From: Peptococcaceae bacterium
GTDB lineage: Bacteria; Bacillota; Desulfitobacteriia; Desulfitobacteriales; Syntrophobotulaceae
DNA length: 62,284 bases
Direction of reading: 5' to 3'
NCBI GenBank assembly: GCA_012517475.1
Contig: JAAYUV010000097.1
Location: forward strand, 1-62,284
The notes beneath the pieces were generated by a model. That model was not told where the DNA came from and did no database searches. It worked only from the letters and a program-made list of their open reading frames with translations. Below are positions 10,600-55,307 of the stretch, in pieces. A program made the translations under genes and the position numbers. Within the stretch, counting starts at the first letter, position 1, and each line of letters opens with the position of its first letter.

Positions 10600-12084
10600 A
10601 TGATGAGCTTACCACAACTTGAAAGTTGGCTGCTGAATGCAGCAAATATAATAAGAGGACCTGTTGATCCAAGTGATTATAAGGCATATATCTTCCCCTT
10701 GCTATTCTTCAAACGTATTTCTGATGTTTATGAAGAAGAGTATGCACAAGCATTGGAAGAATCTAATGGAGATATTGAGTATGCGGAATTTGAAGAAAAT
10801 CACCGATTTATAATTCCAAAGGGCTGTAGATGGAGTGATCTACAGGCTAAAACCACTAATATTGGTGCCGCTATATCCAGCATTTTTCGTCGTATAGAAC
10901 TTGCTAATAGAAAAACTCTTAGCGGTATCTTTGGTGATGTTGAGTGGAAAAACAAAGATAAGCTTTCGGACGAACGTTTAAAAAATCTTGTTGAACATTT
11001 TTCTCTACATAACTTATCTATAAAGAATGTTGAGCCGGATATGGCAGGCCGCGCTTATGAATACTTAATTAAGCGCTTTGCTGATAAGACAAATAAAAAG
11101 GCGGGGGAATTTTACACACCTCGAAGCATTGTAAAGTTGATGACTTTAATTCTTGACCCATGTGAAGGTGAGTCGGTATATGACCCGGCTTGTGGTACTG
11201 GCGGGATGCTGTTACAGGCACTTGCTCATGTAAAAGATAAAGGTCAGGATATAAGGACACTTGAACTATACGGGCAAGAAAGAAATCTCACCACATCAGC
11301 CATTGCAAGGATGAATCTGATTATTCACGGATTAGAAGATTTCGATATAGAACGCGGCGATACGCTACGTAATCCGATATTTAGAAACAGAAACCAACTT
11401 GCTACTTTTGACTGTGTTATTGCCAATCCGCCTTTTTCTTTAAAAAAATGGGGCTTGGAAGTTTGGGAGCATGATAAATGGAAGCGCAATGAATACGGTA
11501 CCCCTCCTGCTTCATATGGAGATTTTGCATGGGTACAACACATGTTGAAATCAATGGCGCCTGCAACGGGACGTTTGGCTGTTGTTGTTCCGCATGGTGT
11601 ATTGTTTAGAAAAGGTAGCGAGCAAACCATTCGTGAAAAGCTGATAGAAAATGACAAGATCGAAGCAATTATAGGTTTAGCAGATAACCTTTTTTATGGT
11701 ACTAACCTTGCAGCATGTATTCTTATTCTTAAGCATAGGAAGCAGCCGGATCGCCATCGGAAGGTATTGTTTATTGATGCATCAACGATATATAAACCAC
11801 AACGAGCGCAGAACATTTTAGAGGATGAGCATGTTACTCGTATCTTTGAATTATACAATCAATTTAGGGATGTTCCCCATATTGCACGCGTTGTCTCTCA
11901 TGATGAAATCAAGCAAAATGACTGCAATCTAAGTATATCCCTATTTATCAAAAAAGAAGAAACGAAAGCGATACTTACATTAGATGAAGCCATATTAAAT
12001 TTGCGGAATGCTATTAATATGAGCAAAGCTGCTGATGAAGTACTCAATAGGAAATTGGTTGAGATCGGGGTGATAGAGCAATGA
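10600..12084 (+). CDS. hsdM: Type I restriction-modification methylase subunit HsdM (first copy)
   Basis: A 494-residue full-length HsdM. The N-terminal HsdM bundle (DYKAYIFPLLFFKRISDVYEEE) is followed by the target segment AGEFYTPRSIV, SAM motif I DPACGTGG and catalytic motif NPPF. All key residues are intact. It methylates adenine in the site chosen by HsdS and is required for restriction. ATG 10600 (or 10603) follows AAAGAGG; the frame is open further upstream but only across the promoter and operator. Its stop overlaps the next gene by four bases (ATGA), so the two HsdM proteins are made together. It is roughly half identical to that second copy. Confidence 0.9.
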   Translation: MMSLPQLESWLLNAANIIRGPVDPSDYKAYIFPLLFFKRISDVYEEEYAQALEESNGDIEYAEFEENHRFIIPKGCRWSDLQAKTTNIGAAISSIFRRIELANRKTLSGIFGDVEWKNKDKLSDERLKNLVEHFSLHNLSIKNVEPDMAGRAYEYLIKRFADKTNKKAGEFYTPRSIVKLMTLILDPCEGESVYDPACGTGGMLLQALAHVKDKGQDIRTLELYGQERNLTTSAIARMNLIIHGLEDFDIERGDTLRNPIFRNRNQLATFDCVIANPPFSLKKWGLEVWEHDKWKRNEYGTPPASYGDFAWVQHMLKSMAPATGRLAVVVPHGVLFRKGSEQTIREKLIENDKIEAIIGLADNLFYGTNLAACILILKHRKQPDRHRKVLFIDASTIYKPQRAQNILEDEHVTRIFELYNQFRDVPHIARVVSHDEIKQNDCNLSISLFIKKEETKAILTLDEAILNLRNAINMSKAADEVLNRKLVEIGVIEQ

Positions 12085-13577
12085 GCGAAAAAAGACTGAC
12101 ACAAGCTGAATTGGAATCCCATTTAAAAGCCGCAGCTAATCTGCTGCGTGGAGATATTGATGCAGGGGATTATAAGCAATATATTTTCCCATTGCTTTTC
12201 TTTAAGCGTATCTGCGACGTTTATGACGAGGAGTATAATGAAGCAATGAAGGAATCCGATGGGGATGAAGAGTATGCTGCTGAAATATATGAGCACCGCT
12301 TTATAGTTCGTCCTCAGAACCATTGGAATGAGGTGCGTAAAACCACCACAAATGTTGGAGCAAGGATTAATAAAGCACTTCGCGGGATCGAATTCGATAA
12401 TAAGGAAACCCTGACTGGTATTTTTGGTGATGCCAAGTGGACAAATAAAAAACGCTTGTCCGACGAGACTCTAAAGGAACTCATTGAACAGTTCTCTTTG
12501 ATGAAGCTTGACAACACCCACGCGGGACTGGATGAATTGGGAAATGCGTATGAATTTTTGATTAAGTATTTTGCTGATGACAGTGGCCATACTGCTGCGG
12601 AATTTTATACTAATCGAACTGTCATTGATCTTATGACTTCTCTATTGGATATTAAGCCTGGCGAATCTGTGTACGACCCAACTTGCGGAACTGGCGGAAT
12701 GTTGATGGTAACAGCGGCCCGCTTGAAAAAACTTGGAATGGAATATCGGAATTTGCGGCTTTATGGACAAGAGATAAATATAATCACATCTTCTGTGGCA
12801 AGGATGAATATGTACCTCCATGGCATTGAGGATTTTGAGATAGCCCAAGGCGATACATTGTCTAAATCATATTTTAAAGATAAAGATAAACTTAAAACAT
12901 TTGATGTTGTCTTGGCCAATCCGCCGTATTCAATTAAGCAATGGGATAGGGCGTTGTTTGAAAACGATCCTTACAACAGAAACGAATATGGAGTACCGCC
13001 ACAAGGATGTGCTGATTATGCATTCTTTGCCCACATACTCAAGAGCTTAGATAAGAATACTGGTCGCTGTGCAATCCTCTTTCCTCATGGGGTTTTGTTT
13101 AGAGATTCAGAGAAAGAGATTCGTGCAAACATCATTAAGGCTGATAGGATTGAATGTGTTATAGGCTTGGGACCGAATTTGTTTTACAACTCACCAATGG
13201 AAGCCTGTATTGTTATTTGCAGAATGAAAAAACCAGACAAAACTAAAAATCGCATACTATTTATTAATGCGGTTAATGAAGTGAAACGTGAGCAGGCGCA
13301 GAGCTTCTTAGAGCCGGAGCATATTGAACGAATAGATAGAGCATACAAAGCATTTGAGGATATTGACGGTTTTTCAAAGGTAGTGAAAATTGATGAGATT
13401 CGGGATTGGAATCTTTCAATACCGCTTTATGTACGTAGTAACGGGGACACATCGACTGTGAATGACGCTTCTCTATTACAAGAAAAATATCTTGAATGGC
13501 GTCGTCATTCAGAGGGGTTATATCAGAAACTCGATGATCTGCTTGCGAAATTGACCGGTCAGGGGGTGAATCTGTGA
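12081..13577 (+). CDS. hsdM: Type I restriction-modification methylase subunit HsdM (second copy)
   Basis: A 498-residue HsdM paralogue of the preceding gene. It shares the same domain order and has intact motifs: DPTCGTGG at 199-206 and NPPY at 280-283, plus AAEFYTNRTVIDLM. The two copies diverge along their whole length, so this is not a recent duplication. A Type I methylase is normally M2S1 with identical M subunits; two different functional M genes before one hsdS suggest a mixed M-M'-S complex. The start codon overlaps the previous stop, and the end overlaps the GTG of hsdS by four bases. Confidence 0.9.
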   Translation: MSEKRLTQAELESHLKAAANLLRGDIDAGDYKQYIFPLLFFKRICDVYDEEYNEAMKESDGDEEYAAEIYEHRFIVRPQNHWNEVRKTTTNVGARINKALRGIEFDNKETLTGIFGDAKWTNKKRLSDETLKELIEQFSLMKLDNTHAGLDELGNAYEFLIKYFADDSGHTAAEFYTNRTVIDLMTSLLDIKPGESVYDPTCGTGGMLMVTAARLKKLGMEYRNLRLYGQEINIITSSVARMNMYLHGIEDFEIAQGDTLSKSYFKDKDKLKTFDVVLANPPYSIKQWDRALFENDPYNRNEYGVPPQGCADYAFFAHILKSLDKNTGRCAILFPHGVLFRDSEKEIRANIIKADRIECVIGLGPNLFYNSPMEACIVICRMKKPDKTKNRILFINAVNEVKREQAQSFLEPEHIERIDRAYKAFEDIDGFSKVVKIDEIRDWNLSIPLYVRSNGDTSTVNDASLLQEKYLEWRRHSEGLYQKLDDLLAKLTGQGVNL

Positions 13578-14719
13578 AACTTGGTGACGTTGCGCGGGAA
13601 GTTAAAATAACCATTAATAATCCTCTAGAAGAAGGTCTGGAACGTTATGTAGGTTTAGAACATCTCGATCCTCAAGAATTAAAAATTCAGCGCTGGGGTA
13701 ATATTGCCGATGGTGTAACCTTCAACAAAAAGTTTTGTGCAGGCCAGATTTTGTTTGGTCGCCGTCGAGCATATCAGAAGAAAGCCGCAGTAGCAGATTT
13801 TGATGGGATTTGCTCCGGTGATATCACTGTTATAGAAGCAATCGAAGGTGCGATTGTTCCTGAGTTATTACCATATATTATCCAGAGTGATTCATTTTTC
13901 GAGTATGCTGTAAGCGAATCAGCAGGATCTTTGTCTCCAAGAGTTAAATGGAAGCATCTGGCTGAATATGAACTCTCTTTGCCTGATAAGGATACTCAAC
14001 GTAAAATTGCCGAGCTAATGCAGGCATTCGACGAGAGCGTAGAAGCGCATTGCAATACCGTGCTGGCACTGCGTGCTATTTATTCAAGCAGTCGGATTGC
14101 TTTCACTGATTGTACAACCGTAACGATTAAAGATCTTGCTCGCCCTGATACCGATAAGAGTTTTATAGACGGAGATTGGATAGAGGCTGAATATCTATCT
14201 AAAAAAGGTATTAGGTTGATTCAAACAGGCAACATAGGAATCAATGAATTTATTGATAAAAACGACCAAAAATGGATTTCAGAAGCAACTTTTGATTTGC
14301 TACGTTGCACTGAAGTTGAGCCAGGAGACATACTCATATGTAGATTGGCCGACCCTGTTGGTAGAGCATGTGTTATTCCTGATCTTGGCACAAAAATGAT
14401 AACTGCTGTTGACTGTACAATATTAAAGATTGATAAGTCAAAATATGATGCGGACTTCATTGCATATTTACTAAATACCGATGAATGGCTTGCTTTATGT
14501 AAAAGATTCTCACGCGGTTCAACACGTCAGCGAATAACCAGAAGCGCACTAGGTGATTTAACGATTCAGGTACCAAGTATTGATGAGCAAAGAGCATTTG
14601 CAAAGAAGATTGCAATAATAAAGGATGCGTTACTTGCAGAGCAAGCTGCTATCGAGAAAATAAAGGCATTAAAAAAAGAAACTATTACAAAGCTAATTTC
14701 AGGAGGTGATACACAGTGA
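13574..14719 (+). CDS. hsdS: Type I restriction specificity subunit HsdS
   Basis: A 381-residue HsdS with two target-recognition domains. The first spans about residues 1-140 (YVGLEHLDPQELKIQRWG, GQILFGRRRAYQKKAAVADFDGICSGD). The second spans about 180-345 (IQTGNIGINEFID, GDILICRLADPVGRACVI). Each is followed by a helical spacer. It sets the DNA site for methylation and cleavage. The GTG start has GGGGGTG upstream and overlaps hsdM; the end overlaps the hsdR start by four bases. It has about twice the length of the half-S gene at 8325. I see no inverted repeats joining the two S genes that would allow recombinational switching. Confidence 0.9.
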   Translation: MKLGDVAREVKITINNPLEEGLERYVGLEHLDPQELKIQRWGNIADGVTFNKKFCAGQILFGRRRAYQKKAAVADFDGICSGDITVIEAIEGAIVPELLPYIIQSDSFFEYAVSESAGSLSPRVKWKHLAEYELSLPDKDTQRKIAELMQAFDESVEAHCNTVLALRAIYSSSRIAFTDCTTVTIKDLARPDTDKSFIDGDWIEAEYLSKKGIRLIQTGNIGINEFIDKNDQKWISEATFDLLRCTEVEPGDILICRLADPVGRACVIPDLGTKMITAVDCTILKIDKSKYDADFIAYLLNTDEWLALCKRFSRGSTRQRITRSALGDLTIQVPSIDEQRAFAKKIAIIKDALLAEQAAIEKIKALKKETITKLISGGDTQ

Positions 14720-17631
14720 CAATGAACCACAGCGAGCCAAACACCATTGAACCATATGTCATTGAGCAAATCAAAAAAGCTGGATGGACGTATGTTCCGG
14801 CTTCGGGATTGAGCCGGAAGACAGATGAAGTGATCGACGAAAAGCTGCTGAAAGAAGCGCTCATTCGTCTTAATCCCGACATTGCCCGTGAACCGCAAAA
14901 CGCTGACGAGGTTATATTTAAAATTAGGGCTGCTGTGCTAAGTCAGCGCAATGACGGATTAATATCCGCAAACGAAACTCTGATGAAACTGATTCGCGAA
15001 GAACCGTCCTTCCAGTTTGGAGAAGATGGAGATCATGTTTCAATCAAAATCATAGACTTCGATGATCCTGACAAAACAAAGAACAGCTATATTGTTACAA
15101 ACCAATATACTGTTACAAACGGTACCATTGAAAAACGTCCGGATATCGTTATGCTCATTAACGGGATTCCGGTTGTAGTAGGTGAGATAAAAACAGCCTT
15201 CCGTAATGCCGTAACCTGGTTTGACGGAGCTTACGATATCACTGAGGATTACCAGCAAACTATACCGGATTTGTTTGTGCCGAATGTTATTTGTTTTTCT
15301 ACTGAGGGAAAGGCTTATCGCTATGGTGCTGTGGGCACTCCACCCGATAAATGGGCACCGTGGCGTGAGTCCGGTCAAGAAGTTCTTGAAGTAGGGTTAC
15401 GTAATTTAGACGCGCCGATTTTGCAGATGTTAAATACAGAAGCTGTATTGGACATTATGCATTTCTTTACCCTGTTCGCTACAGATGGTCGCGGTCAGAA
15501 GACAAAAATCATTTGTCGGGCACAGCAATTCTATGCAGCAAATAAAATGGTTGACCGTGTGAAACGCTCTACGGCAAAGCAGGGCTTAATCTGGCACTTC
15601 CAAGGGTCAGGCAAATCCTTGTTGATGGCTTTTGTTGCTCTAAAGTTGCGCCAAGATGAGGCTTTGCAAAACCCAACAGTAATCGTTGTCGTTGACAGAA
15701 AGGATCTTGATACGCAGATTACCGGAACTTTCAAAGCGACAGATATCCCCAATATGGAGCAAATAAAGGATAAGGCTCATTTACAGCAGCTTTTGGAAGC
15801 GGGCACTCGCAAAATATTAGTAACCACCATTCAAAAGTTCGCTGATTTCGATGGTATTGTTGACCGTCGTGACAATATTATCATGCTTGTCGATGAAGCT
15901 CACCGAACACAAGAAGGCGATCTTGCAATCAAAATGAGGACAGCACTTCCTAATGCATTCTTGTTTGGACTCACAGGCACACCTATTAATAGGCGTGATA
16001 GAAACACCTTCACAACCTTCGGTGCTCCTGATGATGAGGGAGGGTATCTCGACAAATACTCCATCGAGGATTCTCTTCGTGACAAGACAACGGTCCCGCT
16101 CCATTTTCAACCTCGTCTGGTTGAAATGAGAATTGACCGGGCCATTATCGATGAAGAGTTCGCTAAAATGGCTGACTCTCTCGACGAAGAAAGCATGGAA
16201 GAGCTCTCGAAAAGAGCTGGAAAAATGCCAACGATCGTTAGTTCGTCCGAGCGTATTTATAAAATCGCTGAGGATATTGCCAAGCATTACACAGAGAATG
16301 TTGAACCGAATGGCTTCAAGGCTATGATTGTATGTTATGACCGTCATTGTTGTGCGGAGTATAAGCGGGCTATGGATACTCTCTTTCCTGCTGATGCGAC
16401 CGATATCGTAATGACGACGAGCAAGGGAGATCCGGCTGAATATCAGCAATGGGATCGAAAGAAAGAGGATGAAAGTAAACTACTTGATCGATTCCGTGAT
16501 CCGGATGATCCGCTAAAAATACTTATTGTCACCGCAAAGTTACTCACCGGTTTTGATGCCCCAATCATGCAAGCTATGTATTTGGACAAGCCGATGAAAG
16601 GACATACGCTACTGCAGGCAATTTGCCGTATCAACCGTCCATATCCAAATAAGCACTTCGGACTCATTATCGATTATATCGGTGTATTTGATGAAGTTGC
16701 TAAAGCTCTGGAGTTCGACGAAAAGCAGGTTGAAAAGGTAGCGACCATCCTTGATGAGCTTCGAGATGAGTTTCCAATCGCTCTTGAAAAGTGTATGGAG
16801 TATTTCAAAAATGTTGACCGATCGCTTACTGGTTTTGAGGCACTGATAGCAGCCCAAGATTGCCTTCCGAACAATGAAATCCGCGATAAATTTGCTGTTG
16901 ACTATAACTACCTGGCACAGCTGTGGGAAACATTGTCACCGGATCCGCTTCTTTCAAGATACAAGGACGATTATAAATGGCTGTCACAGATTTATGAGTC
17001 AATTCAGCCATCGGGCGGAGTGGGAAGACTTATATGGCACGCGCTTGGCGCTAAAACCATAGAGATTGTTAATCAGAATGTGCACATTGATGCGATACGG
17101 GATGATCTGGAAACCCTCATATTAGATGAAGAGGTAATAAAAGACCTCCTTGATAATCCCGACGAAACAAAAATTAAGGAGCTCGAAATCAAGATATGCA
17201 CTCGACTTCGTAAGTACAAGAACAATCCAAAATTTAAACAGCTTGGTGAGCGTTTAGAAGAGCTAAAGCAAAAGTACGAAGAAGGCTTCTTTAACAGTCT
17301 GGAATTCCTCAAAGGCTTGCTTGAAATCGCTAAAGATACAGTCGTTGCAGAACGCGATATTGAACCGGAAGATAATCGCAAGCAAGCAAAGGCTGCATTG
17401 ACAGAGTTGTTTGAATCAGCAAAGTCAGAAAAGACGCCGATAGCAATCGAGATGTTGGTTACCGAAATCGATAATGTTGTTAACATAGTTCGGTTTGACA
17501 AATGGCAATGGACTAACGCTGGAACACGCGAAGTCAAAAAAGCCTTAAGAACGGCACTGCGTAAACAGGGATTACACAAAGACAACGAGCTGTTTGATAA
17601 AGCCTATAACTATATCCGCGAATACTACTAA
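14716..17631 (+). CDS. hsdR: Type I restriction endonuclease subunit HsdR
   Basis: A 971-residue translocating nuclease of normal length. The N-terminal PD-(D/E)xK nuclease core is visible as Asp143 (RPDIVML) and E157-I-K159 (VGEIK). The two RecA-like motor domains show Walker A FQGSGKS with Lys300, DEAH at 393-396 (VDEAHRTQEGD), LTGTPI and ICRINRPY. A helical C-terminal domain binds the methylase core. It cleaves unmodified DNA after ATP-driven translocation. The start is GTG 14716 or ATG 14722, overlapping hsdS. The gene is intact, so this system should restrict as well as modify. It closes the operon before a shared terminator. Confidence 0.94.
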   Translation: MTMNHSEPNTIEPYVIEQIKKAGWTYVPASGLSRKTDEVIDEKLLKEALIRLNPDIAREPQNADEVIFKIRAAVLSQRNDGLISANETLMKLIREEPSFQFGEDGDHVSIKIIDFDDPDKTKNSYIVTNQYTVTNGTIEKRPDIVMLINGIPVVVGEIKTAFRNAVTWFDGAYDITEDYQQTIPDLFVPNVICFSTEGKAYRYGAVGTPPDKWAPWRESGQEVLEVGLRNLDAPILQMLNTEAVLDIMHFFTLFATDGRGQKTKIICRAQQFYAANKMVDRVKRSTAKQGLIWHFQGSGKSLLMAFVALKLRQDEALQNPTVIVVVDRKDLDTQITGTFKATDIPNMEQIKDKAHLQQLLEAGTRKILVTTIQKFADFDGIVDRRDNIIMLVDEAHRTQEGDLAIKMRTALPNAFLFGLTGTPINRRDRNTFTTFGAPDDEGGYLDKYSIEDSLRDKTTVPLHFQPRLVEMRIDRAIIDEEFAKMADSLDEESMEELSKRAGKMPTIVSSSERIYKIAEDIAKHYTENVEPNGFKAMIVCYDRHCCAEYKRAMDTLFPADATDIVMTTSKGDPAEYQQWDRKKEDESKLLDRFRDPDDPLKILIVTAKLLTGFDAPIMQAMYLDKPMKGHTLLQAICRINRPYPNKHFGLIIDYIGVFDEVAKALEFDEKQVEKVATILDELRDEFPIALEKCMEYFKNVDRSLTGFEALIAAQDCLPNNEIRDKFAVDYNYLAQLWETLSPDPLLSRYKDDYKWLSQIYESIQPSGGVGRLIWHALGAKTIEIVNQNVHIDAIRDDLETLILDEEVIKDLLDNPDETKIKELEIKICTRLRKYKNNPKFKQLGERLEELKQKYEEGFFNSLEFLKGLLEIAKDTVVAERDIEPEDNRKQAKAALTELFESAKSEKTPIAIEMLVTEIDNVVNIVRFDKWQWTNAGTREVKKALRTALRKQGLHKDNELFDKAYNYIREYY

Positions 17632-20189: not shown

Positions 20190-20259
20190 ACCCTGCGGAT
20201 TCGCTTCTGCCGTGAGCTACCTATGGAGAGAACAACAACACCGCTCTCCAGAAAAGAGG
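20189..20259 (+). promoter_or_regulatory. Conserved structured leader motif, copy A
   Basis: GACCCTGCG (20189-20197), then TGAGCTACCTATG (20213-20225), then a hairpin TGGAGAG (20224-20230)/CTCTCCA (20244-20250) followed by GAAAAGAGG. The same blocks with the same 24-base spacing occur at 51366-51402, where the hairpin arms differ but still pair. This points to a selected RNA structure just upstream of a ribosome site. Confidence 0.55.
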
Positions 20260-20267
20260 TAAGAGCG

Positions 20268-20474
20268 ATGAAGCATGAGCTAAAAATCAGCATCCGTAGG
20301 GCACCGTTTGAAGGTAGCGTTGTTAAAAATCAGACGGTCACCCTACGGGAGCGGCTTCTGAAGCGAATGTTTGGCGAAAAGCACAGGGTGATGGTAATCG
20401 TCCCCGGCGATAGCGTTGAGCGTGTATCGATTTCAGAGCTGCCGGAGGAGGGTAACGAAGATGAACGAGCGTGA
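20268..20474 (+). CDS. Small phage protein of unknown function
   Basis: A 68-residue protein (MKHELKISIRRAPFEG...) with a basic middle (RERLLKRMFGEKHR). Start ATG 20268 follows AGAGGTAAG; an ATG at 20223 in the same frame lies inside the leader hairpin and is less likely. It overlaps the start of the split helicase gene by 14 bases, which marks it as part of the same operon. I recognise no domain. Confidence 0.55.
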   Translation: MKHELKISIRRAPFEGSVVKNQTVTLRERLLKRMFGEKHRVMVIVPGDSVERVSISELPEEGNEDERA

Positions 20475-20658
20475 CCCCACTCCGAAAATCCCAATGACTA
20501 TTAAGGCGAAAGCCTACCGCCATCAAATAGAGGCCTTCAATTTCGTTTGTAAGTGTTTTGGCCTCTTTGCGGAGGGAGGTGCTTCCGATGCCAAAGGTCG
20601 AGGTGACCTGCCGGATTTGCGGCAAGCCTTTCCTAAAGCCGGAAACCCAAGTCCGTGA
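20461..20658 (+). pseudogene. N-terminal fragment of an interrupted SNF2 helicase
   Basis: Starts ATG 20461 behind GGAGGAGGG. Residues 12-36 (MTIKAKAYRHQIEAFNFVCKCFGLF) are the Q-motif-like opening of phage SNF2 helicases. Right after Phe36 (base 20568) the helicase similarity stops, and the ribosome site and coding region of an HNH endonuclease gene begin. The frame runs on to 20658 within the HNH gene as unrelated residues. The helicase similarity resumes at 21013. The interruption therefore splits one gene by insertion of another. Confidence 0.7.
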
Positions 20659-21007
20659 AAACAATTTCTGCTGTGTAGAGCATTTTCGTCAGTGGAATTC
20701 GAAGCGCATGTCGGAATACAACAGCAGCACCAATCCCATGAACCAACCCGGCGGCGTAATGGAAGCACGTATCAAACGCAGTCATGCTATGCGGGGTACT
20801 GGTGAAGGCAAAGCTTATAGAAAATTACTGGGAAAGCATGAACACCGCAGGATTGCTGAAGCGATACTTGGCAGGCCGCTTAAAGAAGGCGAGGTTGTCC
20901 ATCACCTCGACGGGAACAAGCTGAACAATGATCCAGCAAACCTTGAAATTTTACCCTCACAAGCAGAACATGCAAGGATTCATTTTTCAAAGAAGAAAGC
21001 GAGGTGA
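20588..21007 (+). CDS. HNH homing-type endonuclease inserted in the helicase gene
   Basis: A 139-residue protein. The N-terminal zinc-finger-like part has CRICGKPF and CCVEH. The C-terminal HNH nuclease has HHLDGNKLNNDPANLEIL, in which the His pair and both Asn residues are visible. ATG 20588 follows GGAGGGAGGT. It sits between codons of the SNF2 helicase (after GLF, before SKGCGAALLMEMG), with no intron core seen, so it looks like a free-standing or 'intronless' homing gene. Its stop overlaps the next in-frame ATG of the helicase. Confidence 0.85.
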   Translation: MPKVEVTCRICGKPFLKPETQVRENNFCCVEHFRQWNSKRMSEYNSSTNPMNQPGGVMEARIKRSHAMRGTGEGKAYRKLLGKHEHRRIAEAILGRPLKEGEVVHHLDGNKLNNDPANLEILPSQAEHARIHFSKKKAR

Positions 21008-21070
21008 TGCATATGAACATTTCCAAAGGCTGTGGAGCTGCACTCCTGATGGAAATGGGTTAACTAAGGC
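21007..21070 (+). other. Helicase middle segment ending in a 10-base insert within Walker A
   Basis: From ATG 21007 or 21013 the frame reads MNISKGCGAALLMEMG and then meets TAA at 21061. The next ten bases, TAACTAAGGC, are extra. Removing them restores MEMG-TGKS-LTAIAV, a perfect Walker A, in the frame of the downstream helicase. The codon before the stop is GGT (21058-21060). The last codon of the insert is GGC (21068-21070); both are read by the same glycine tRNA. Simple +1 or -1 slips fail because stops or a wrong frame follow. Confidence 0.6.
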
Positions 21071-21097
21071 ACAGGAAAAAGCCTTACAGCCATCGCT

Positions 21098-22363
21098 GTG
21101 GCGGGAGCGCTGTATGACGAAAATCGCATACGCCGCGTTCTGATTGTCGCACCGCTATCCATCTTAGGTGTCTGGCAGGAGGAATTCTCCAAGTTTGCGG
21201 CCTTTGACTATAACCTTGCGGTGCTGACCGGCTCCGGTGCAAAGAAAATCGATACCTTAAGACACCTGAATGGCGATGCGCTTCAGGTCGCGGTTATCAA
21301 CTATGAATCAGCGTGGCGGCTGGAAAAGGAGATTGCTGCGTGGCATCCGGAACTGATCATTGCGGATGAAGGGCACAAGATCAAAACCCATAACATAGCG
21401 GCAAGTAAAGCCATGCACCGACTTGGGGCCGGAGCGCGGTACCGGCTGTTATTAACTGGCACGCCGGTGACCAACAAAGCCATCGATGTGTTCAGCCAAT
21501 ACAAGTTTTTAAATCCTGCAATATTCGGTCAAAGCTTCTATGCCTTCCGGAATCGGTATTTTAACATGGTTGGTTACGGTAACCATACACCGGTACTTAA
21601 AAAGTCGATGGAGCGGGAACTGACCGAGCGGATGCATTCCATTGCATATCGTGCCACAAAAGCAGAGTGTCTCGATTTGCCGGATACAACAGATATCGTT
21701 CGCAAGGTCGAGCTGGAGCCGCATGCGATGCGTCTTTATCGAAATCTTGTCAAGGACAGCTATGCGGAGCTTTCAAAGGGCGAGGTTACGATTACCAACG
21801 TTCTGACGAAGCTGTTAAGGCTATCCCAACTAACCGGCGGTTTTTTAGGCAGTGATGAGAGCGCATCGACTGAACAAGTCAGTACGGCCAAGCTGGAGGT
21901 GCTGGAGGATATTATCGATTCAGCTTTGGAAGAAAACCAGAAGCTGGTTATTATTGCGCGCTTTGTGCCGGAGTTAAACGCCATTTGCAGGCTGCTGGAT
22001 AAAAAGGGTGTGCGTCACTCGCTCATCATGGGCGGCGTGAAGAACCGCGACGAACAGGTATCACAATTTCAAAATGATCCCAATGTTCCTGTATTCGTTG
22101 GGCAGATCGCAACGGCGGGTCTTGGCATCACACTTACGGCGGCCAGCACCATGGTGTTTTATTCGCTGGATTATTCCATGAGCAACTTTGAGCAGACAAA
22201 AGCCCGGATTCACCGAGCAGGCCAGCGAATGCCCTGCACCTACATTTATTTAACAGCCACCGGAACAGTAGATGAGAAGGTCTTAAAAGCACTGAAGAAC
22301 AAGGCTAATCTTGCAAAAATGCTGGTGGACGATTACAGAACGGGACTGAATCCATTCCAATAA
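21098..22363 (+). CDS. SNF2-family helicase, main body without its Walker A
   Basis: A 421-residue open frame (more if reached by bypassing from upstream) holding SNF2 motifs Ia to VI: VLIVAPLSILGVW, DEGH (IIADEGHKIK), LLTGTPVTN, then VIIARF, MGGV, QIATAGLGITLTAASTMVFYSLDYS and QTKARIHRAGQ. Phage proteins of this type accompany replication and recombination genes. The first usable start (GTG 21098) lies after the Walker A lysine, so a protein begun here could not bind ATP normally. The long intact frame argues that the region is still under selection or only recently broken. Confidence 0.8.
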   Translation: MAGALYDENRIRRVLIVAPLSILGVWQEEFSKFAAFDYNLAVLTGSGAKKIDTLRHLNGDALQVAVINYESAWRLEKEIAAWHPELIIADEGHKIKTHNIAASKAMHRLGAGARYRLLLTGTPVTNKAIDVFSQYKFLNPAIFGQSFYAFRNRYFNMVGYGNHTPVLKKSMERELTERMHSIAYRATKAECLDLPDTTDIVRKVELEPHAMRLYRNLVKDSYAELSKGEVTITNVLTKLLRLSQLTGGFLGSDESASTEQVSTAKLEVLEDIIDSALEENQKLVIIARFVPELNAICRLLDKKGVRHSLIMGGVKNRDEQVSQFQNDPNVPVFVGQIATAGLGITLTAASTMVFYSLDYSMSNFEQTKARIHRAGQRMPCTYIYLTATGTVDEKVLKALKNKANLAKMLVDDYRTGLNPFQ

Positions 22364-22379
22364 GAGAGAGGAGATACCT

Positions 22380-22802
22380 ATGTACGATTCAGAGAAAATG
22401 TTTGAACTTGCAGATCGCCTGAAAGAACTGCGAGACACGAAAAAGGAGCTTGAGCAGCAGCTAAAGTCAATTAATACCGAGCTTGACGAAGTGGACTTTA
22501 GCTTGGCAACAGCCATGCTGGAATCAGAAACACAAAACTTTACCCGCTCCGGCGTTATGTTTTGCCTAACCAACACAACCCGCGCATCTGCTGCAGCGGA
22601 CCGCAAAGATGAGCTTTTTGCAGCCTTGCGCGCTGAAGGTTTTGGCGGGCTGATCTATGAGACCGTTAATGCCATTTCACTATCTGCTTTCGTAAAAGAG
22701 CAGATCGCGGAAAACAACGATACCCTTCCGGACTGGCTAAACGGGCTGGTAAATGTATTTGAAAAAACCACTGTGGGCGTCCGCAAGGCGACCCGTAAAT
22801 AA
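22380..22802 (+). CDS. Phage protein with N-terminal coiled coil
   Basis: A 140-residue protein. Residues about 5-45 (LADRLKELRDTKKELEQQLKSINTELDEV) form a strong coiled coil, and the rest is mixed helix and strand. ATG 22380 follows GAGAGGAG. It sits between the helicase and a cysteine-containing protein in the replication operon; such small coiled-coil proteins are regular neighbours there, but their role is not known to me. Confidence 0.6.
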   Translation: MYDSEKMFELADRLKELRDTKKELEQQLKSINTELDEVDFSLATAMLESETQNFTRSGVMFCLTNTTRASAAADRKDELFAALRAEGFGGLIYETVNAISLSAFVKEQIAENNDTLPDWLNGLVNVFEKTTVGVRKATRK

Positions 22803-30907: not shown

Positions 30908-30927
30908 CAAGGATTGGAGAGATGAAA

Positions 30928-32091
30928 ATGAAACAATATTTAACGGCAGAAAGTGTCTGCATGGGACATCCGGATAAGTTATGCGATTTGATAGCAGACA
31001 GTATCCTTGATGCTTGCCTTCGTAAAGACCGCTCCTCTCGAGTGGCGTGTGAGGTCATGGCTACCAAAGGCAAAATTATCGTGGCGGGCGAGATCACCTG
31101 CAGCGGTAAGGTGGATATTCGCTTCGTGGTGAAAAGGATTCTGCGGGACGTGGGCTACAATCCAAACAAATTTTTAATTCTCGTCTTTGTCCATAAACAA
31201 AGCACAGATATTGCAACTGGTGTAGATAAGGCGCTGGAAGCTCGAAGCGGTGATACCAGTTGGTATGGATCCATCGGTGCCGGGGATCAAGGCACTGTGT
31301 ACGGTTACGCCACAAACGAAACGCAGGAAATGCTGCCATTACCGGTCGTTTTGGCCCACAGGATTACACGCCGCTTAGACTCGGTGCGCAAAGAGGGTCT
31401 GATCAAAGGCTTGCTGCCGGACGGAAAAGCTCAGGTGACAATTGAGTATGAAAACGGCGAAGCAAAGCGCGTGAAGACAATTATTGTTTCTGCTCAGCAT
31501 ATTGCAGACAAATCGACAAAGGATTTGCGAGAGGATATTATTCGTTGGGTGTTATGGAACGCCTTTGAGAAGTTCCCCTTTGATAATGATACAGAAATCC
31601 TTGTGAACCCTTCTGGCCGTTTTGTGGAGGGCGGGCCTTCAGCAGACACAGGGCTTACCGGAAGGAAGCTCATGGTTGACACCTATGGTGGCCTTGCTCC
31701 TCATGGTGGCGGAGCATTCTCCGGAAAGGATCCAACTAAGGTTGATCGCAGCGGCGCATATATGGCTCGCTACATCGCCAAGCACATCGTTTGGAGTGAT
31801 TATGCGAAGTGTTGTGTGGTCAGTATTTCTTATGCCATTGGCAAGGCGGATCCAGTTGCCTTTGAAGTAGACACACTGGGAACGGGCACTGTACCCGATG
31901 CCGTTTTACGCGAAGCCGCACTCAAGGTATTTAATTTAAGACCGGCAGCAATGATTGAAAAGCTAAACCTTCGAAACACCATTTATGCGGATACCGCGAC
32001 CTATGGTCATTTTGGAAAATGGCAGGGCTCGTGGGAGGATGTCAATCAATACAAGGATTATAGAGAGGCGGTGACAGCGCTTGTTGATTGA
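30928..32091 (+). CDS. metK: Prophage-encoded S-adenosylmethionine synthetase
   Basis: About 387 residues, the full MetK length. It makes SAM from ATP and methionine. The signature motifs are all present: catalytic His in ESVCMGHPDKLCD, the ATP loop GSIGAGDQGTVYGYA and the phosphate loop PHGGGAFSGKDPTKVDRSGAY. The sequence is phage-like and surrounded by packaging genes, so it is not the housekeeping copy. Start ATG 30928 has GGAGAG at the right distance; ATG 30922 is too close. Two DNA methyltransferases follow directly, the first overlapping its end, which suggests it feeds them SAM. Confidence 0.93.
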   Translation: MKQYLTAESVCMGHPDKLCDLIADSILDACLRKDRSSRVACEVMATKGKIIVAGEITCSGKVDIRFVVKRILRDVGYNPNKFLILVFVHKQSTDIATGVDKALEARSGDTSWYGSIGAGDQGTVYGYATNETQEMLPLPVVLAHRITRRLDSVRKEGLIKGLLPDGKAQVTIEYENGEAKRVKTIIVSAQHIADKSTKDLREDIIRWVLWNAFEKFPFDNDTEILVNPSGRFVEGGPSADTGLTGRKLMVDTYGGLAPHGGGAFSGKDPTKVDRSGAYMARYIAKHIVWSDYAKCCVVSISYAIGKADPVAFEVDTLGTGTVPDAVLREAALKVFNLRPAAMIEKLNLRNTIYADTATYGHFGKWQGSWEDVNQYKDYREAVTALVD

Positions 32092-33380: not shown

Positions 33381-34622
33381 ATGGAAAACACAATGGTTAT
33401 AAAGCGCATTCCAGCCGGGCAGCTTAAAGCAGCAAAGTATAATCCGAGAAAGGATTTAAAGCCTGGGGATTCTGAATACGAAAAGCTCAAACGATCCATT
33501 CAGACCTTCGGGTATGTCGAGCCGATTCTTTGGAATCAAAGGACGGGCAATATAATCGGAGGTCACCAACGTTACAAAGTCTTGCTTGATTTAGGACATA
33601 CGGAAATTGACTGTGTTGTCGTAGACATGGACTTGGCAGATGAAAAGGCGCTCAATGTTGCGCTGAACAAGGTTTCCGGTGACTGGGACATTCCCCTTTT
33701 GACCGAGCTGTTAAAAGATATCAATGCCAGCGGCTTTGATGTATCGCTGACCGGTTTTGATGCTGCGGAGATGGATTCACTGTTTCGGGATAGCGTAATT
33801 GCAGGCGTCAAAGAAGACAGTTTTGATGAGCCTTTACCGGAAACGCCGATTTCCCGCCAAGGAGATATCTGGCTGCTGGGAAGACACAAGCTCATCTGCG
33901 GAGATAGCACAAAGCCCGACACATATACAGCCCTGATGGACGACCAACAGGCCAACCTTGTAGTGACTGATCCGCCATATAACGTGGCTTATGAAGGTAC
34001 TGCCGGTACCATCCAGAACGACAACATGGACAGCGCCAAGTTCCACGCATTTTTACTGTCAGCTTTTCGCTGTATGTATGAGAAGCTTGTAGACGGTGGA
34101 AGTATTTATGTATTCCACGCAGATCGGGAAACCGTCAACTTTCGAACCGCCTTTACCGAGGCGGGTTTTTTCTGCCATCAGACCTGTATCTGGATAAAGA
34201 ATGTGCCGGTGCTTGGCCGCTGCGTTTATCAGTATAACCACGAACCGGTGCTTATGGGCTGGAAACCGACAGCAGGACATCAGTGGTATGCAGATCGAAA
34301 GCAGCGCACCACCTGGAATTTCGACCGGCCGTCAAAGAGTAAATTTCATCCGACTATGAAACCGGTAGCTTTGGTTGCTTATCCGATCGTTAACAGCAGC
34401 GTATCCAATAGCATTGTGCTGGACCCCTTCGGCGGCAGTGGTAGCACGCTCATTGCCTGTGAGCAGACAGAACGGATTTGTCACACGATCGAGCTTGACG
34501 AAAAATACGTCGATGTGATTGTAAAGCGGTATCTGGAGTTTAAAGGCACGGATGCAGAGGTTACCCTCTTGCGTGGCGGCGAAAAAATGAGCTATGAAAA
34601 AGCGCAGAATACAGTCAAATAA
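33381..34622 (+). CDS. ParB-domain DNA methyltransferase, DPPY type
   Basis: A 413-residue paralogue of the preceding gene, with the same ParB-like N-domain (NPRKDLKPGDSEYEKLKRSI, IIGGHQRYKVL) but catalytic motif VTDPPYNVAYEG, typical of N6-adenine methylases. The SAM loop reads DPFGGSGSTLIACEQTERICHTIELD. The shared N-half and different catalytic half point to duplication followed by exchange or divergence of the methylase domain. ATG 33381 follows GGAGG. The pair probably modifies two different phage sequences. Confidence 0.9.
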   Translation: MENTMVIKRIPAGQLKAAKYNPRKDLKPGDSEYEKLKRSIQTFGYVEPILWNQRTGNIIGGHQRYKVLLDLGHTEIDCVVVDMDLADEKALNVALNKVSGDWDIPLLTELLKDINASGFDVSLTGFDAAEMDSLFRDSVIAGVKEDSFDEPLPETPISRQGDIWLLGRHKLICGDSTKPDTYTALMDDQQANLVVTDPPYNVAYEGTAGTIQNDNMDSAKFHAFLLSAFRCMYEKLVDGGSIYVFHADRETVNFRTAFTEAGFFCHQTCIWIKNVPVLGRCVYQYNHEPVLMGWKPTAGHQWYADRKQRTTWNFDRPSKSKFHPTMKPVALVAYPIVNSSVSNSIVLDPFGGSGSTLIACEQTERICHTIELDEKYVDVIVKRYLEFKGTDAEVTLLRGGEKMSYEKAQNTVK

Positions 34623-35727: not shown

Positions 35728-35753
35728 CATGTCTATTTTTGTGGAAGGAGGCG

Positions 35754-37361
35754 GTGACAATAAGAAAACTAAAGAAATACACTCCAACTCGTTTTATGGC
35801 GAAGGATTCAGTTTACAGTAAAGCCGCCGCCGACTATGCAGTCGCATTTATTCAAGCACTGCGTCATACCAGCGGTATATGGGATGGCCAGCCTTTTGAA
35901 CTTATAGATTGGCAAGAACGGATTATCCGTGATGTGTTTGGTGTTCTCAAACCGAACGGGTATCGACAGTTCAACACAGCCTTTATTGAAATACCAAAGA
36001 AGAATGGAAAGTCCGAGCTTGCTGCAGCAGTCGCCTTACTGTTGACCTGTGGTGATGGCGAGCAGCGTGCCAAGGTATACAGCTGTGCTTCTGATAAAAA
36101 TCAAGCGAAGATAGTATTTGAGGTAGCTGTGGCAATGGTGCGTAAATCACCGGCGTTAAGTAAGCGCGTGAAAATACTTGAATCTACAAAGACGCTAATA
36201 TTTACACCAACTGAGAGTACTTATCAGGTGCTTTCAGCCGACGTAGCGAATAAGCATGGTTTCAATACACATGGCGTCATTTTTGATGAGCTGCACACGC
36301 AGCCCAACAGAAAGCTATTTGATGTTATGACCAAGGGCAGCGGAGATGCTCGGATGCAACCACTGTATTTTCTGATTACCACAGCGGGAGACAATACGAA
36401 TTCTATCTGCTACGAGGTGCATCAAAAGGCACAGGATATTCTTTCTGGACGTAAGACGGATCCGACCTTTTATCCGGTGATTTACGGTATCGAAGAGACA
36501 GATGACTGGACGGATCCAAAAGTATGGAAAAAAGCAAATCCCTCTCTTGGAATTACAATCGGTATAGATAAAGTGAAAGCGGCTTGTGAAAGTGCAAAGC
36601 AAAACCCAGCAGAAGAAAACAGCTTCAGGCAGCTTCGCCTTAATCAATGGGTAAAGCAGGCTGTGCGCTGGATGCCTATGGATAAATGGGACAAATGCGC
36701 CTTTGCTGTTGATCAAAGTAGCCTCAAGGGACGTGTTTGTTATGGTGGCCTCGATCTTTCCTCTTCAACGGATATCAGCGCTTTTGTGCTGGTGTTCCCC
36801 CCGATTGATGAGGATGACAAATACATTATCCTGCCATACTTTTGGATACCAGAAGAAAACCTCGAATTGCGCGTCCGGCGTGATCACGTGAATTATGATT
36901 TGTGGGAGAAACAAGGTTTTCTTCAAACCACCGAAGGCAATGTCGTTCACTATGGCTTTATTGAGGCCTGCATTGAGCGTCTAGGTTTAGAGTATAACAT
37001 ACGTGAAATTGCCTTTGATCGCTGGGGTGCTGTTCAGATGGTGCAAAACCTTGAAGGTATGGGATTCACTGTCGTTCCCTTTGGGCAAGGCTTCAAGGAT
37101 ATGTCGCCTCCAACGAAGGAACTAATGAAGCTGACACTGGAGCAGAAAATCGCACATGGCGGGCATCCAGTACTTCGGTGGATGATGGACAACATTTTTA
37201 TTCGAACAGACCCTGCAGGCAATATCAAGCCCGATAAGGAAAAATCGACGGAGCGTATCGATGGTGCGGTTGCGACCATCATGGCTCTGGATCGAGCAAT
37301 ACGTTGTGGTAATGATACGAGCGCTTCGGTTTATGACCAGCGCGGCTTGCTTGTATTTTAA
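35754..37361 (+). CDS. Phage terminase large subunit
   Basis: About 535 residues. The N-terminal ATPase has the atypical Walker A of this family (IPKKNGKSELAAA) and Walker B VIFDELHTQPNRKLFDVM. The C-terminal RNase H-like nuclease shows GGLDLSSSTDISAF with the first catalytic Asp, and later FDRWGAVQM. It packages DNA into the prohead and cuts it. The start is placed at GTG 35754 (MTIRKLKK...); AAGGAGG lies very close, so TTG 35739 is an alternative. HK97-like phage module. Confidence 0.93.
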   Translation: MTIRKLKKYTPTRFMAKDSVYSKAAADYAVAFIQALRHTSGIWDGQPFELIDWQERIIRDVFGVLKPNGYRQFNTAFIEIPKKNGKSELAAAVALLLTCGDGEQRAKVYSCASDKNQAKIVFEVAVAMVRKSPALSKRVKILESTKTLIFTPTESTYQVLSADVANKHGFNTHGVIFDELHTQPNRKLFDVMTKGSGDARMQPLYFLITTAGDNTNSICYEVHQKAQDILSGRKTDPTFYPVIYGIEETDDWTDPKVWKKANPSLGITIGIDKVKAACESAKQNPAEENSFRQLRLNQWVKQAVRWMPMDKWDKCAFAVDQSSLKGRVCYGGLDLSSSTDISAFVLVFPPIDEDDKYIILPYFWIPEENLELRVRRDHVNYDLWEKQGFLQTTEGNVVHYGFIEACIERLGLEYNIREIAFDRWGAVQMVQNLEGMGFTVVPFGQGFKDMSPPTKELMKLTLEQKIAHGGHPVLRWMMDNIFIRTDPAGNIKPDKEKSTERIDGAVATIMALDRAIRCGNDTSASVYDQRGLLVF

Positions 37362-37379
37362 TTAAGGAGAGTGATGTCT

Positions 37380-38636
37380 ATGGGAATACTACAGGGAATA
37401 TTTAAGGCACGCGACAAGCCTAAGGACGTTCTTGGCGGCAGCCGCTACAGCTTCTTTTTCGGAAGCACTACTGCGGGAAAACCTGTCAACGAGCATACAG
37501 CTATGCAGATGACAGCGGTTTACTCCTGCGTAAGAATACTATCCGAGACGCTGGCTGGGCTACCGCTCCATGTGTACCGCTACAACGATTTAGGCGGAAA
37601 AGAGAAACACCTCGCTCACCCATTGTATAAGCTACTCCATGATGAACCAAACCCTGAGATGACTTCTTTTGCATTTCGAGAAACGCTGATGAGTCATCTT
37701 TTGTTGTGGGGAAATGCATACGCACAGATTATCCGGAATGCACGAGGCGAGGTCGTTGCACTTTATCCACTGATGCCAAACAAAATGACGGTCGATCGCG
37801 ATTCAGCAGGTCGGCTTTTTTATTTGTATCAGCGAAGCTCAGAGGATAATCCCTCCCTTGGAAAGGACAGTCATGTCTACCTTGCTCCGCCCGATGTACT
37901 GCATATCCCTGGCCTGGGTTTTGACGGGCTGGTCGGCTACTCACCTATTGCAATGGCAAAAAATGCTGTGGGACTTGCTATTGCCACCGAGGAATACGGT
38001 GCAAAGTTCTTCGCCAACGGGGCCGCACCTGGCGGCGTGCTGGAGCACCCGGGTACCATCAAGGACCCGCAGAAGATTAAGGAATCGTGGAATGCTGCCT
38101 ACCAAGGAAGTGGAAATGCGCACAGGGTAGCTGTACTTGAGGAAGGCATGAAATATCAGACTATAGGTATCTCACCCGAACAAGCGCAGTTTCTGGAAAC
38201 TCGGAAGTTTCAGATTAACGAGATTGCCCGCATATTTAGAGTTCCACCACATATGCTTGCAGATCTCGAAAAGAGCAGCTTCTCAAACATCGAACAACAG
38301 TCACTGGAGTTCGTAAAGTACACGCTTGATCCGTGGGTGGTGCGCTGGGAGCAGTCCATGTGCCGCGCCCTGCTTATGGAAAGTGAAAAGCTGAAGGTGT
38401 TCATTAAGTTCAACGTGGACGGACTGCTTCGCGGTGACTATGTAAGCCGCATGAACGGCTATGCCACAGCACGTCAGAACGGTTGGATGAGCGCTAATGA
38501 TATTCGGGAACTTGAAAACCTCGACCGAATCCCGGCGGAGCTTGGCGGTGATCTCTATCTCATCAATGGAGCGATGACTAAGTTGCAGGACGCAGGAGCG
38601 TTCGCAAATATACAAGAAACGGAGGAAACAGAATGA
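37380..38636 (+). CDS. Phage portal protein, HK97 family
   Basis: About 418 residues with portal signatures: AVYSCVRILSETLAGLPLHVYR, PDVLHIPGLGFDGLVGYSPI and FGVPPHMLADLEKSSFSNIEQQSLEFV-type text (IFRVPPHML...). It forms the dodecameric ring through which DNA enters. ATG 37380 is chosen because AAGGAGA lies nine bases upstream. The stop overlaps the protease start by four bases. Confidence 0.93.
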   Translation: MGILQGIFKARDKPKDVLGGSRYSFFFGSTTAGKPVNEHTAMQMTAVYSCVRILSETLAGLPLHVYRYNDLGGKEKHLAHPLYKLLHDEPNPEMTSFAFRETLMSHLLLWGNAYAQIIRNARGEVVALYPLMPNKMTVDRDSAGRLFYLYQRSSEDNPSLGKDSHVYLAPPDVLHIPGLGFDGLVGYSPIAMAKNAVGLAIATEEYGAKFFANGAAPGGVLEHPGTIKDPQKIKESWNAAYQGSGNAHRVAVLEEGMKYQTIGISPEQAQFLETRKFQINEIARIFRVPPHMLADLEKSSFSNIEQQSLEFVKYTLDPWVVRWEQSMCRALLMESEKLKVFIKFNVDGLLRGDYVSRMNGYATARQNGWMSANDIRELENLDRIPAELGGDLYLINGAMTKLQDAGAFANIQETEETE

Positions 38637-53735: not shown

Positions 53736-55307
53736 GTGGCGGTAAGTAGGAATGTAACAGTGATTCCGGCAATTAAACGGGTTGGAAATAATAAAAATAG
53801 TGAAAGCAAACCCAAAATACGAGTGGCTGCTTATTGTCGTGTTTCAACGGATAGTGAGGAGCAGGCTTCAAGTTATGAAATTCAGATTGAGCATTATACA
53901 AACTATATTAAGAAGAACAAGGAATGGGAATTGGCAGGTATTTTTGCGGATGACGGCATCACAGGCACAAATACCAAGAAGCGTGATGAATTCAACCGTA
54001 TGATTGAAGCGTGTATGGCAGGAAATATTGATATGATCATCACAAAATCCATCAGCCGATTTGCCAGAAACACGTTGGACTGCCTTAAGTACATCCGTCA
54101 GTTAAAGGATAAAAACATTGCTGTGTTCTTCGAGAAAGAGAATATCAACACCATGGATTCTAAGGGTGAAGTCCTGCTGACCATTATGGCATCCCTTGCC
54201 CAACAGGAAAGCCAATCCTTAAGCCAGAACGTTAAGCTAGGTATTCAGTATCGCTATCAGCAAGGTGAAGTTCAGGTCAACCACAAGCGTTTCCTTGGAT
54301 ACACCAAGGATGAAAACAAGCAACTAGTGATTGACCCAGAGGGTGCTGAGGTTGTTAAACGGATTTACAGGGAGTACCTTGAGGGGGCGAGCCTTTTACA
54401 GATAGCAAGAGGACTAGAAGCAGACGGTATACTTACGGCGGCAGGCAAAGCCAAATGGAGACCGGAAACACTGAAAAAGATACTGCAGAATGAAAAGTAC
54501 ATCGGTGATGCCCTTCTACAAAAAACATATACGGTTGATTTCCTTTCTAAAAAGCGAGTCAAGAATAACGGCATCGTTCCCCAGTATTATGTGGAAAACA
54601 GCCATGAACCTATCATTCCCCGTGACCTTTTTATGCAGGTTCAAGAAGAGATGGTTCGAAGAGCGAATCTTCGTGGCGGTAAAGGCGGTAAAAAGCGGGT
54701 CTATAGCAGCAAGTATGCTTTATCGAGTATTGTTTACTGCGGACAGTGCGGCGATATTTACCGACGGGTACACTGGAATAACCGAGGTTACAAGTCTATT
54801 GTTTGGAGATGCGTCAGCCGTTTGGAGGAAAAAGGGTCTGAATGCACTGCCCCTACCATAAACGAGGAAACATTACAGACAGCAGTTGTTAAGGCTATTA
54901 ACGAACTTTTGGCTACCAAAGAACCCTTCCTCTCAACGCTACAGAAAAACATAGCTACTGTACTTAATGAAGAAAATGATAATGCAACAGATGATATTGA
55001 TAGCAAATTGGAAGAATTACAACAACAGCTTCTTATACAAGCAAAGTCCAAGAATGACTATGAAGATGTGGCTGATGAAATTTACCGCCTTCGGGAAATG
55101 AAGAAAAATTCACTGGTTGAAAATGCAGAGCGAGAAGGAAAAAGGCAACGAATCGCTGAAATGACTGATTTCTTGAATGAACAATCCTACGAGTTGGAGG
55201 AATATGATGAGCAGTTAGTAAGGCGGCTTATTGAAAAAGTAACGATATATGAAGATAAGCTCACCGTTGAATTCAAGTCTGGGATTGAGATTGACGAAGA
55301 GATATAG
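53736..55307 (+). CDS. Large serine recombinase, third of the module
   Basis: A 523-residue protein. The catalytic domain has [18 protein letters not shown] and [12 protein letters not shown]. It continues with a recombinase domain ([49 protein letters not shown]), a zinc ribbon ([11 protein letters not shown]) and a coiled coil. It is related to but clearly distinct from the first recombinase, suggesting that the two catalytic enzymes act as a heteromeric integrase with the small middle protein. GTG 53736 has GTGAGGTG. The element's terminator follows. Confidence 0.92.

Follow-up and report, generated by a model that had tools for sequence, protein, structure and literature searches.

A putative short ribosomal bypass element in the Walker A motif of a phage-type SNF2 helicase gene, and its recurrence in related genes

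In a stretch of DNA from a Peptococcaceae bacterium (assembly GCA_012517475.1, contig JAAYUV010000097.1, positions 1 to 62,284, forward strand; this whole stretch of 62,284 nucleotides (nt) is called the window), the gene for an SNF2-type helicase is interrupted within its Walker A motif by 10 nt that begin with a stop codon and separate MEMG from TGKS. Is such a gene dead, or could ribosomes still make a continuous Walker A motif from it? The comparison reported here makes it very likely that they do: the site would be a natural stop-hop element for programmed bypassing by ribosomes, of the type known from gene 60 of phage T4 but short and recurrent. On the sequences compared, translational joining of the two halves is strongly favored over a dead gene.

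The window helicase gene consists of three pieces (Table 1): an N-terminal part, found by tblastn at about an equal position in relatives; past the HNH gene at 20588-21007, the part that begins with ATG 21013; and a 430-codon part from 21071. This second half contains the Pfam domains SNF2-rel_dom (E 3.9e-31) and Helicase_C (E 8.4e-12) and is assigned to the DNA helicase family PHROG 62 (E 1.1e-117). Across the junction the order is ATG 21013, MNISKGCGAALLMEMG, TAA 21061-21063 as the start of the insert at 21061-21070, and ACA GGA AAA AGC from 21071; because GG is repeated, the edges of the insert are uncertain by a few bases. Every element of the split layout that the preliminary description had set out, from the HNH gene through the resumption at 21013 and the GGT to the insert and TGKS, is seen in the sequence, and its statement that a plain +1 slip is blocked likewise holds, since TAA at 21065-21067 closes the downstream frame just ahead of GGC. 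A DNA search of the window's own genome gave the window itself as the sole match to this region.

In the proposed mechanism, a ribosome would start at 21013 and read to GGT at 21058-21060, where, with UAA in the A site, the peptidyl-tRNA-Gly would detach. An mRNA stem (21018-21025 paired with 21050-21057), melted by the passing ribosome, would refold behind it and favor a forward slide of 10 nt. The tRNA would then re-pair at GGC 21068-21070, and translation would resume at ACA to give a continuous Walker A motif.

As a test of bypassing, the preliminary description had proposed to look in relatives for the insert amid silent changes, and this is what was found. A homology scan that used only the second half, and was therefore blind to the insert, gave 27 viral loci, 26 of them close (70-89%). 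Ten of these 26 (L008, L009, L010, L015, L016, L021, L022, L025, L030, and L032) carry a Walker A insert, and all ten inserts start with a stop codon. An unbiased pattern consisted of MEM, any 4-34 nt, and TGK plus loosely conserved codons, which admits inserts of 1-31 nt; its matches were 29 viral and 76 genome stretches. Over 244 loci there are 117 matches, and a helicase lies downstream in 69 of them, the window included; the remaining 48 show no helicase similarity downstream, and in one of these (L060) the sequence stops 27 nt past the motif. In all 69 loci the insert stands at one site and is 4, 5, 6, 7, 8, 9, or 10 nt long, and in 67 it starts with a stop directly after the take-off codon, whereas a random first codon would be a stop in 3 of 64 cases.

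Counted among the 69 insert loci are the window, near-copies, and repeat entries of one contig, and removal of 13 near-copies left 56 rows for comparison. Intact controls were taken from 135 listed matches with helicase similarity, of which 77 below 50% identity and nine near-copies were removed to leave 49 rows; this control set, and each comparison with it below, is among the matches listed and gives no share of interrupted genes. Hosts of insert-bearing genes include Lachnospiraceae CE91-St56, Merdimmobilis hominis, Ruminiclostridium papyrosolvens, Acetivibrio straminisolvens, Thermoanaerobacterium butyriciformans, Tepidanaerobacter, and Clostridium prolinivorans, among others. Because isolates and one complete genome are among them, sequencing error does not explain the family. 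One cultured lysogen, a Lachnospiraceae strain, has a complete genome sequence (AP025576.1; locus L228).

A distant blastn search of 20200-22400 against phage records gave no match, and tblastn gave 2487 phage records, all below 60% identity; in the two best phages, THSA-485A and FP_Epona, the annotated helicase is uninterrupted. A DNA search of 198 related genomes matched seven, including the window; among the other, weak matches, L005 has the insert and L002, L003, and L006 are intact. The pattern search found one of 82 genomes at class level, the window itself, and five of 398 in a phylum sample, window included. The pattern also matched a set of stretches with an 11-nt gap and no downstream helicase similarity (L176, L181, L184, L190, L191, L195, L201, and others, mostly Lachnospiraceae), which presumably belong to another conserved gene.

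Two kinds of insert can be distinguished: the GGN kind, with the stop just after the glycine codon of Walker A, and the ATG kind, with the insert just after the preceding methionine codon. Among 32 distinct combinations of take-off codon, insert, and landing codon, the landing codon equals the take-off codon at three positions in nine, at two in 21, and at one in two; a match of at least two positions is thus seen in 30 of 32 combinations, as against 10 of 64 by chance. A stop stands right after the take-off codon in the window and in 31 of the 32. The geometry of the hop proposed for the window, from GGT to GGC, is shared across these combinations, with two weak landings and one stopless insert as departures from it. 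In one assembly, two loci (L196, GGA to GGA, a broken copy; L199, GGT to GGT) differ from each other in both codons together. A codon match alone is no proof of a hop, because the two sides of a fresh insert could be alike by origin.

The range of insert lengths bears on whether the stop is simply read through, or passed by ordinary +1 or -1 frameshifting, in place of hopping. Inserts of 6 and 9 nt are in frame and would permit readthrough, whereas those of 4, 5, 7, 8, and 10 nt cannot be read in frame; slips, for their part, would add residues to the P-loop, and in the window the downstream frame is closed by the TAA at 21065. Such decoding is very unlikely, and hopping is favored over it, since the gaps come in seven lengths that cover all frames and have one geometry in common.

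The simplest alternative named at the outset was a dead gene, in which a random indel inactivated a helicase that is now decaying. A stop plus a frameshift within an essential motif, the additional split by HNH, and further breaks in three of 48 testable insert rows would all suit this explanation. It is contradicted by the way in which the genes have diverged. The ratio of nonsynonymous to synonymous change (dN/dS, by the Nei-Gojobori method, in groups that we chose from a tree, covering 32 of the 56 insert rows and 12 of the 49 intact rows) is 0.028-0.26 among insert rows and 0.041-0.127 among intact rows where synonymous change is unsaturated. The window and L008, both insert-bearing, differ by a proportion of synonymous differences (pS) of 0.71 and of nonsynonymous differences (pN) of only 0.063, and the insert TAGCCATA has been kept in L021, L093, and L152 despite pS of 0.69-0.79, with pN of 0.10-0.16. 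Among rows long enough to be tested, 45 of 48 with an insert and 43 of 44 intact ones have an open downstream frame; eight insert rows and five intact rows were too short. Lengths of 4-10 nt only, and a stop in first place in 67 of 69 loci, also speak against random inactivation. A dead gene is thus improbable, and the interrupted gene appears to be functional.

Purifying selection is seen on either side of the insert in ten rows that do not depend on the insert pattern (the window plus nine homology-found insert loci; the tenth such locus, L010, has a protein identical to that of L009 and was omitted). From the insert to the first possible in-frame start pS is 0.64 and pN 0.18, and in the seven codons ahead of take-off pS is 0.70 and pN 0.07; both sides therefore appear to be translated and selected as protein. 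This bears on a split helicase, made as two polypeptides, the second started downstream of the insert, that assemble like the split NrdA of phage Aeh1. The N-terminal part is already separated by HNH, functional split enzymes are on record (PMC2988022, in its available text), and 11 of 53 insert rows, as against two of 47 intact rows, have a 4-nt Shine-Dalgarno match ahead of the first start downstream, which counts against hopping. However, a start (ATG, GTG, or TTG) within 50 codons, present in 53 of 56 insert rows, always lies at least four codons past the T of TGK, so the lysine, which sits ahead of the first start able to rescue the second half, would be lost. The codons ahead of that start are under purifying selection, the start positions vary among rows, 42 of 53 have no Shine-Dalgarno match, and the matched landing codons and the stem would be left unexplained. 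A split helicase is thus a shade less credible than a dead gene.

The conservation ahead of take-off is equally relevant to termination at the stop followed by re-initiation at the landing codon. Landing codons of the ATG kind (CTG, TTG, ATA, and ACG) resemble weak start codons, whereas those of the GGN kind (GGN, AGC, CGC, and TGC) are not start codons, and a product begun there would lack the conserved LLMEMG (pN 0.07 in the seven codons ahead of take-off). Re-initiation is accordingly highly improbable.

Does the mRNA around the site support hopping? Over the 80 nt before take-off, predicted folding is stronger in insert-bearing genes (mean z -1.57, n=55) than in intact ones (-0.02, n=49; p 5e-11), while from 12 nt downstream on it is not stronger, rather the reverse (z 0.28 vs -0.36). 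The window fold alone is unremarkable in energy (z -1.75; eight of 200 shuffles fold as well). One arm of the common stem, located some 40-49 nt ahead of the last base of the take-off codon and in many rows CATTTCC within codons for Ile-Ser, pairs with the MEM codons; the preliminary description does not mention this stem. Stem and take-off codon are both shifted 3 nt upstream in the ATG kind, and the common form thus abuts the take-off codon in both kinds; some stems extend into it. The arm-to-arm duplex energy is -11.0 with the insert (n=45) and -7.7 without it (n=44; p 4e-9), and under a strict rule a helix of at least 8 base pairs (bp) is present in 39 of 45 insert rows but in two of 44 intact rows. 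Of 16 phylogenetically independent pairs, an average of 11.2 have the helix on the insert-bearing side, 4.8 show no difference, and none has it the other way round (p ~0.001). The HNH-bearing intact loci L013 and L017 have a helix below 8 bp. A predicted mRNA stem at the take-off site accompanies most insert-bearing genes, and the role that we infer for it is that of the gene 60 5' stem-loop, which folds behind the ribosome according to the available text of a 2024 study (PMC11194080).

Removal of the insert from DNA or mRNA before translation, by micro-excision or splicing, would likewise yield a continuous protein, and no other support for it was found. Rfam models gave no match up to E 1 in 20400-21400, neither a group I intron nor another known RNA element, and the inserts are only 4-10 nt long. 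We know of no machinery that removes inserts of this size. This is the least credible of the alternatives, with very little to be said for it.

How might such inserts have arisen? On a tree of those second-half proteins with at least 360 residues (90 of 105), insert-bearing and intact genes interleave, with at least 19 changes of state, 16 of them forced by well-supported branches, though the bootstrap is not fully settled; none of 500 shuffles needed as few as 19. The tree is compatible with gains and with losses alike. The link between insert and HNH gene that the preliminary description had drawn stood in part: among rows with sufficient sequence, 24 of 53 with an insert have an HNH relative no more than 1500 nt upstream, as do two of 42 intact ones (Fisher p 5.8e-6, uncorrected for kinship), and more than half of the inserts in these rows therefore stand without HNH. 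The link is weak among the 26 homology-found loci, where the insert occurs in three of five with HNH and in seven of 21 others. Where HNH is present, the helicase N-terminal part lies about 456-507 nt upstream of MEM. In L015, L025, L032, and L175, which have an insert and no HNH match, the N-terminal part is out of frame with the MEM part; these may be remnants after loss of the HNH gene.

Scanning with the HNH protein left a set of 80 loci, eight of them with a helicase match in the locus: four with TAGC, one intact (L371), one remote match without the motif (L382), and L373 and L374, considered below. Outside the two helicase families, a comparable break in a P-loop gene turned up in only one of the 80 loci, L415, and this candidate is unconvincing. 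It is plausible that the insert destroys a putative HNH cutting site. The insert probably arose as a change that shielded the conserved Walker A DNA from the neighboring HNH homing endonuclease or related enzymes, and inserts over which ribosomes could not hop would have been lost.

A second helicase family has a six-base form of the insert. In L373 and L374 a helicase 31% identical to that of the window, with HNH upstream, reads GGT TAA GGA before TGK, and L372 and L375, which are cut by contig ends, have the same junction. L495 (reverse strand 4621) has the same six bases and no HNH match, and is 80% identical to L374 (3521) with pS 0.82 and pN 0.14. Eight relatives of this helicase without an HNH match (L460-L467) are intact. 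Further forms are GGT TAA GGC in an MDMG variant (L447, reverse strand 1604; six nt, in frame) and GGT TAG GT (L455, from the phylum sample). A scan for six-base in-frame inserts gave ten stretches, six in two-part helicases and four without open frames; of the six, one belongs to the main family and five to the second (four from contigs already in the set). A hairpin special to the insert was not established in the second family. Overall, it is likely that a class of natural short stop-hops is widespread in phage helicases, with at least 32 forms, repeatedly gained or lost, in two distant families, driven by a stem refolding behind the ribosome and spread or selected through HNH endonucleases directed at Walker A DNA.

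Several observations weigh against hopping or soften its support. Two landing codons, CGC and AGC after GGT, match at one position only. Two loci, L182 (3532-3588, minus strand) and L198, have ATG followed by CCACG, which shifts the frame without a stop, and L198 is also broken further on. Broken downstream frames occur in three of 48 insert rows (L196, L198, and L240) as against one of 44 intact rows, and decayed copies are under-counted because the scan pattern demands conserved flanks. The helix of at least 8 bp is absent in six of 45 insert rows (L182, L185, L214, L219, L225, and L232). Some intact relatives in the second family appear by eye able to form a similar hairpin, and the in-frame insert of that family could be plain readthrough. 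The product of a hop in the window would still be without the helicase N-terminal part.

Covariation lends the stem modest support and belongs with these points. It was counted in the ATG kind alone, the GGN-kind alignment having misaligned arms in several rows, and in nine of its 12 rows, with L185, L225, and L232, which have no stem in that register, omitted. In these nine rows the score was 0.222 as against 0.102 when shuffled (0 of 500 as high; maximum with slid partners 0.167), and three stem pairs change on both sides, including U-A to C-G at the wobble base of a Glu codon. The two measures least misled by kinship were not significant: both-side changes (3 vs 1.6, reached in 74 of 500 shuffles) and further pair types (5 vs 4.4, reached in 230 of 500).

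With respect to its setting, the window looks like a prophage plus adjoining chromosomal genes (Table 1). A DNA polymerase A gene is located after the helicase, and ARAGORN detected no tRNA genes across the window. Type I restriction-modification genes (HsdM, HsdS, and HsdR) lie at 12081-17631, upstream of the phage replication genes, and an S-adenosylmethionine synthetase gene (30922-32091) stands amid the phage genes, near a DNA methyltransferase gene (33381-34622). Elsewhere, the insert-bearing helicases of L240 and L196 have extra breaks in the second half, from decay or sequence errors.

Table 1. Features of the interrupted helicase gene and of its surroundings in the window
Feature	Positions	Strand	Remarks
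Open reading frame with helicase N-terminal part	20461..20658	+	helicase-like as far as about 20580, out of register after that; separate short product
HNH endonuclease gene (HNH_3)	20588..21007	+	Pfam PF13392, E 5.1e-12; PHROG HNH families; inserted between helicase N-terminal part and remainder
GAGGTG, Shine-Dalgarno-like	21001..21006	+	6 nt ahead of ATG 21013; motif judged by eye
First half of putative hop gene	21013..21063	+	ATG, 16 codons ending LLMEMG, stop TAA
5' arm of predicted upstream stem, CAUUUCCA	21018..21025	+	minimum free energy fold of 21005-21090; helix scans
3' arm of predicted upstream stem, UGGAAAUG	21050..21057	+	abuts take-off codon; minimum free energy fold of 21005-21090, helix scan
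Putative take-off codon GGT (Gly)	21058..21060	+	sequence and comparison
10-nt insert	21061..21070	+	starts with stop TAA; ends with putative landing codon GGC 21068-21070
Second half: TGKS and rest of SNF2-type helicase	21071..22363	+	430 codons open
Terminase	35739-37361		
Portal	37371-38636		
Integrase	53736-55307		

If this reading is true, the family would offer dozens of naturally occurring cases that differ in gap length (4-10 nt), take-off codon (ATG or GGN), stop, and stem position, and comparing them would be a way to test the rules of hopping. The idea drawn from mobA and gene 60, of an endonuclease paired with a hop insert that protects its target, could also be tested repeatedly. 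Ordinary gene finding is expected to label such genes as broken. Among the matches listed in the open PMC literature there was no earlier report of such elements. In its available text, a 2016 review (PMC5009743) knows of no natural in-frame stop hop and names a few suspected cases of bypassing, and it describes short-distance counterparts of T4 gene 60 as long presumed; a 2020 paper (PMC7576135), likewise in its available text, has bypassing observed so far only in coliphage T4. For a Bacillus methanolicus gene, bypassing or readthrough was suggested without a test, according to the available part of PMC7092467.

Several known systems share features with the present one. The synthetic stop-hops made in E. 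coli (Weiss et al., 1987, as described in the available text of PMC5009743) also have matched codons flanking a stop, with a few nt skipped and one amino acid made, but they are constructs, whereas the present cases are natural genes under selection. Likewise, as far as that review's available text describes them, the bypassing elements of the Magnusiomyces capitatus mitochondrion are short blocks inserted in coding frames with two-out-of-three pairing at landing; they occur in many genes of a yeast mitochondrion, while here one motif in phage genes is affected, partly in association with HNH. Bypassing has been proposed for another phage gene, with a UUA codon as the proposed cause (PMC5009743, compared by its description there only). 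HNH genes for free-standing homing endonucleases also split phage genes in mobE/nrdA of Aeh1 and mobA/topoisomerase of T4 (PMC2988022, available text); in the present case the hop insert is an additional change, located a few dozen nt downstream within Walker A.

The nearest known system, as the preliminary description had recognized, is T4 gene 60 with mobA. Going by the available texts of PMC5009743, PMC11194080, and PMC3014915, the two have in common a glycine take-off codon, an immediate stop, a matched landing codon, an upstream mRNA stem able to fold behind the ribosome, a nearby HNH endonuclease, and a gene for an enzyme of DNA metabolism. The gap is 4-10 nt here and 50 nt there, and the present element is therefore a variant rather than a copy of gene 60. 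Unlike gene 60, it recurs in many lineages and includes an ATG take-off kind, its landing codon is often matched at two of three positions, and in the window only 16 codons precede the putative hop.

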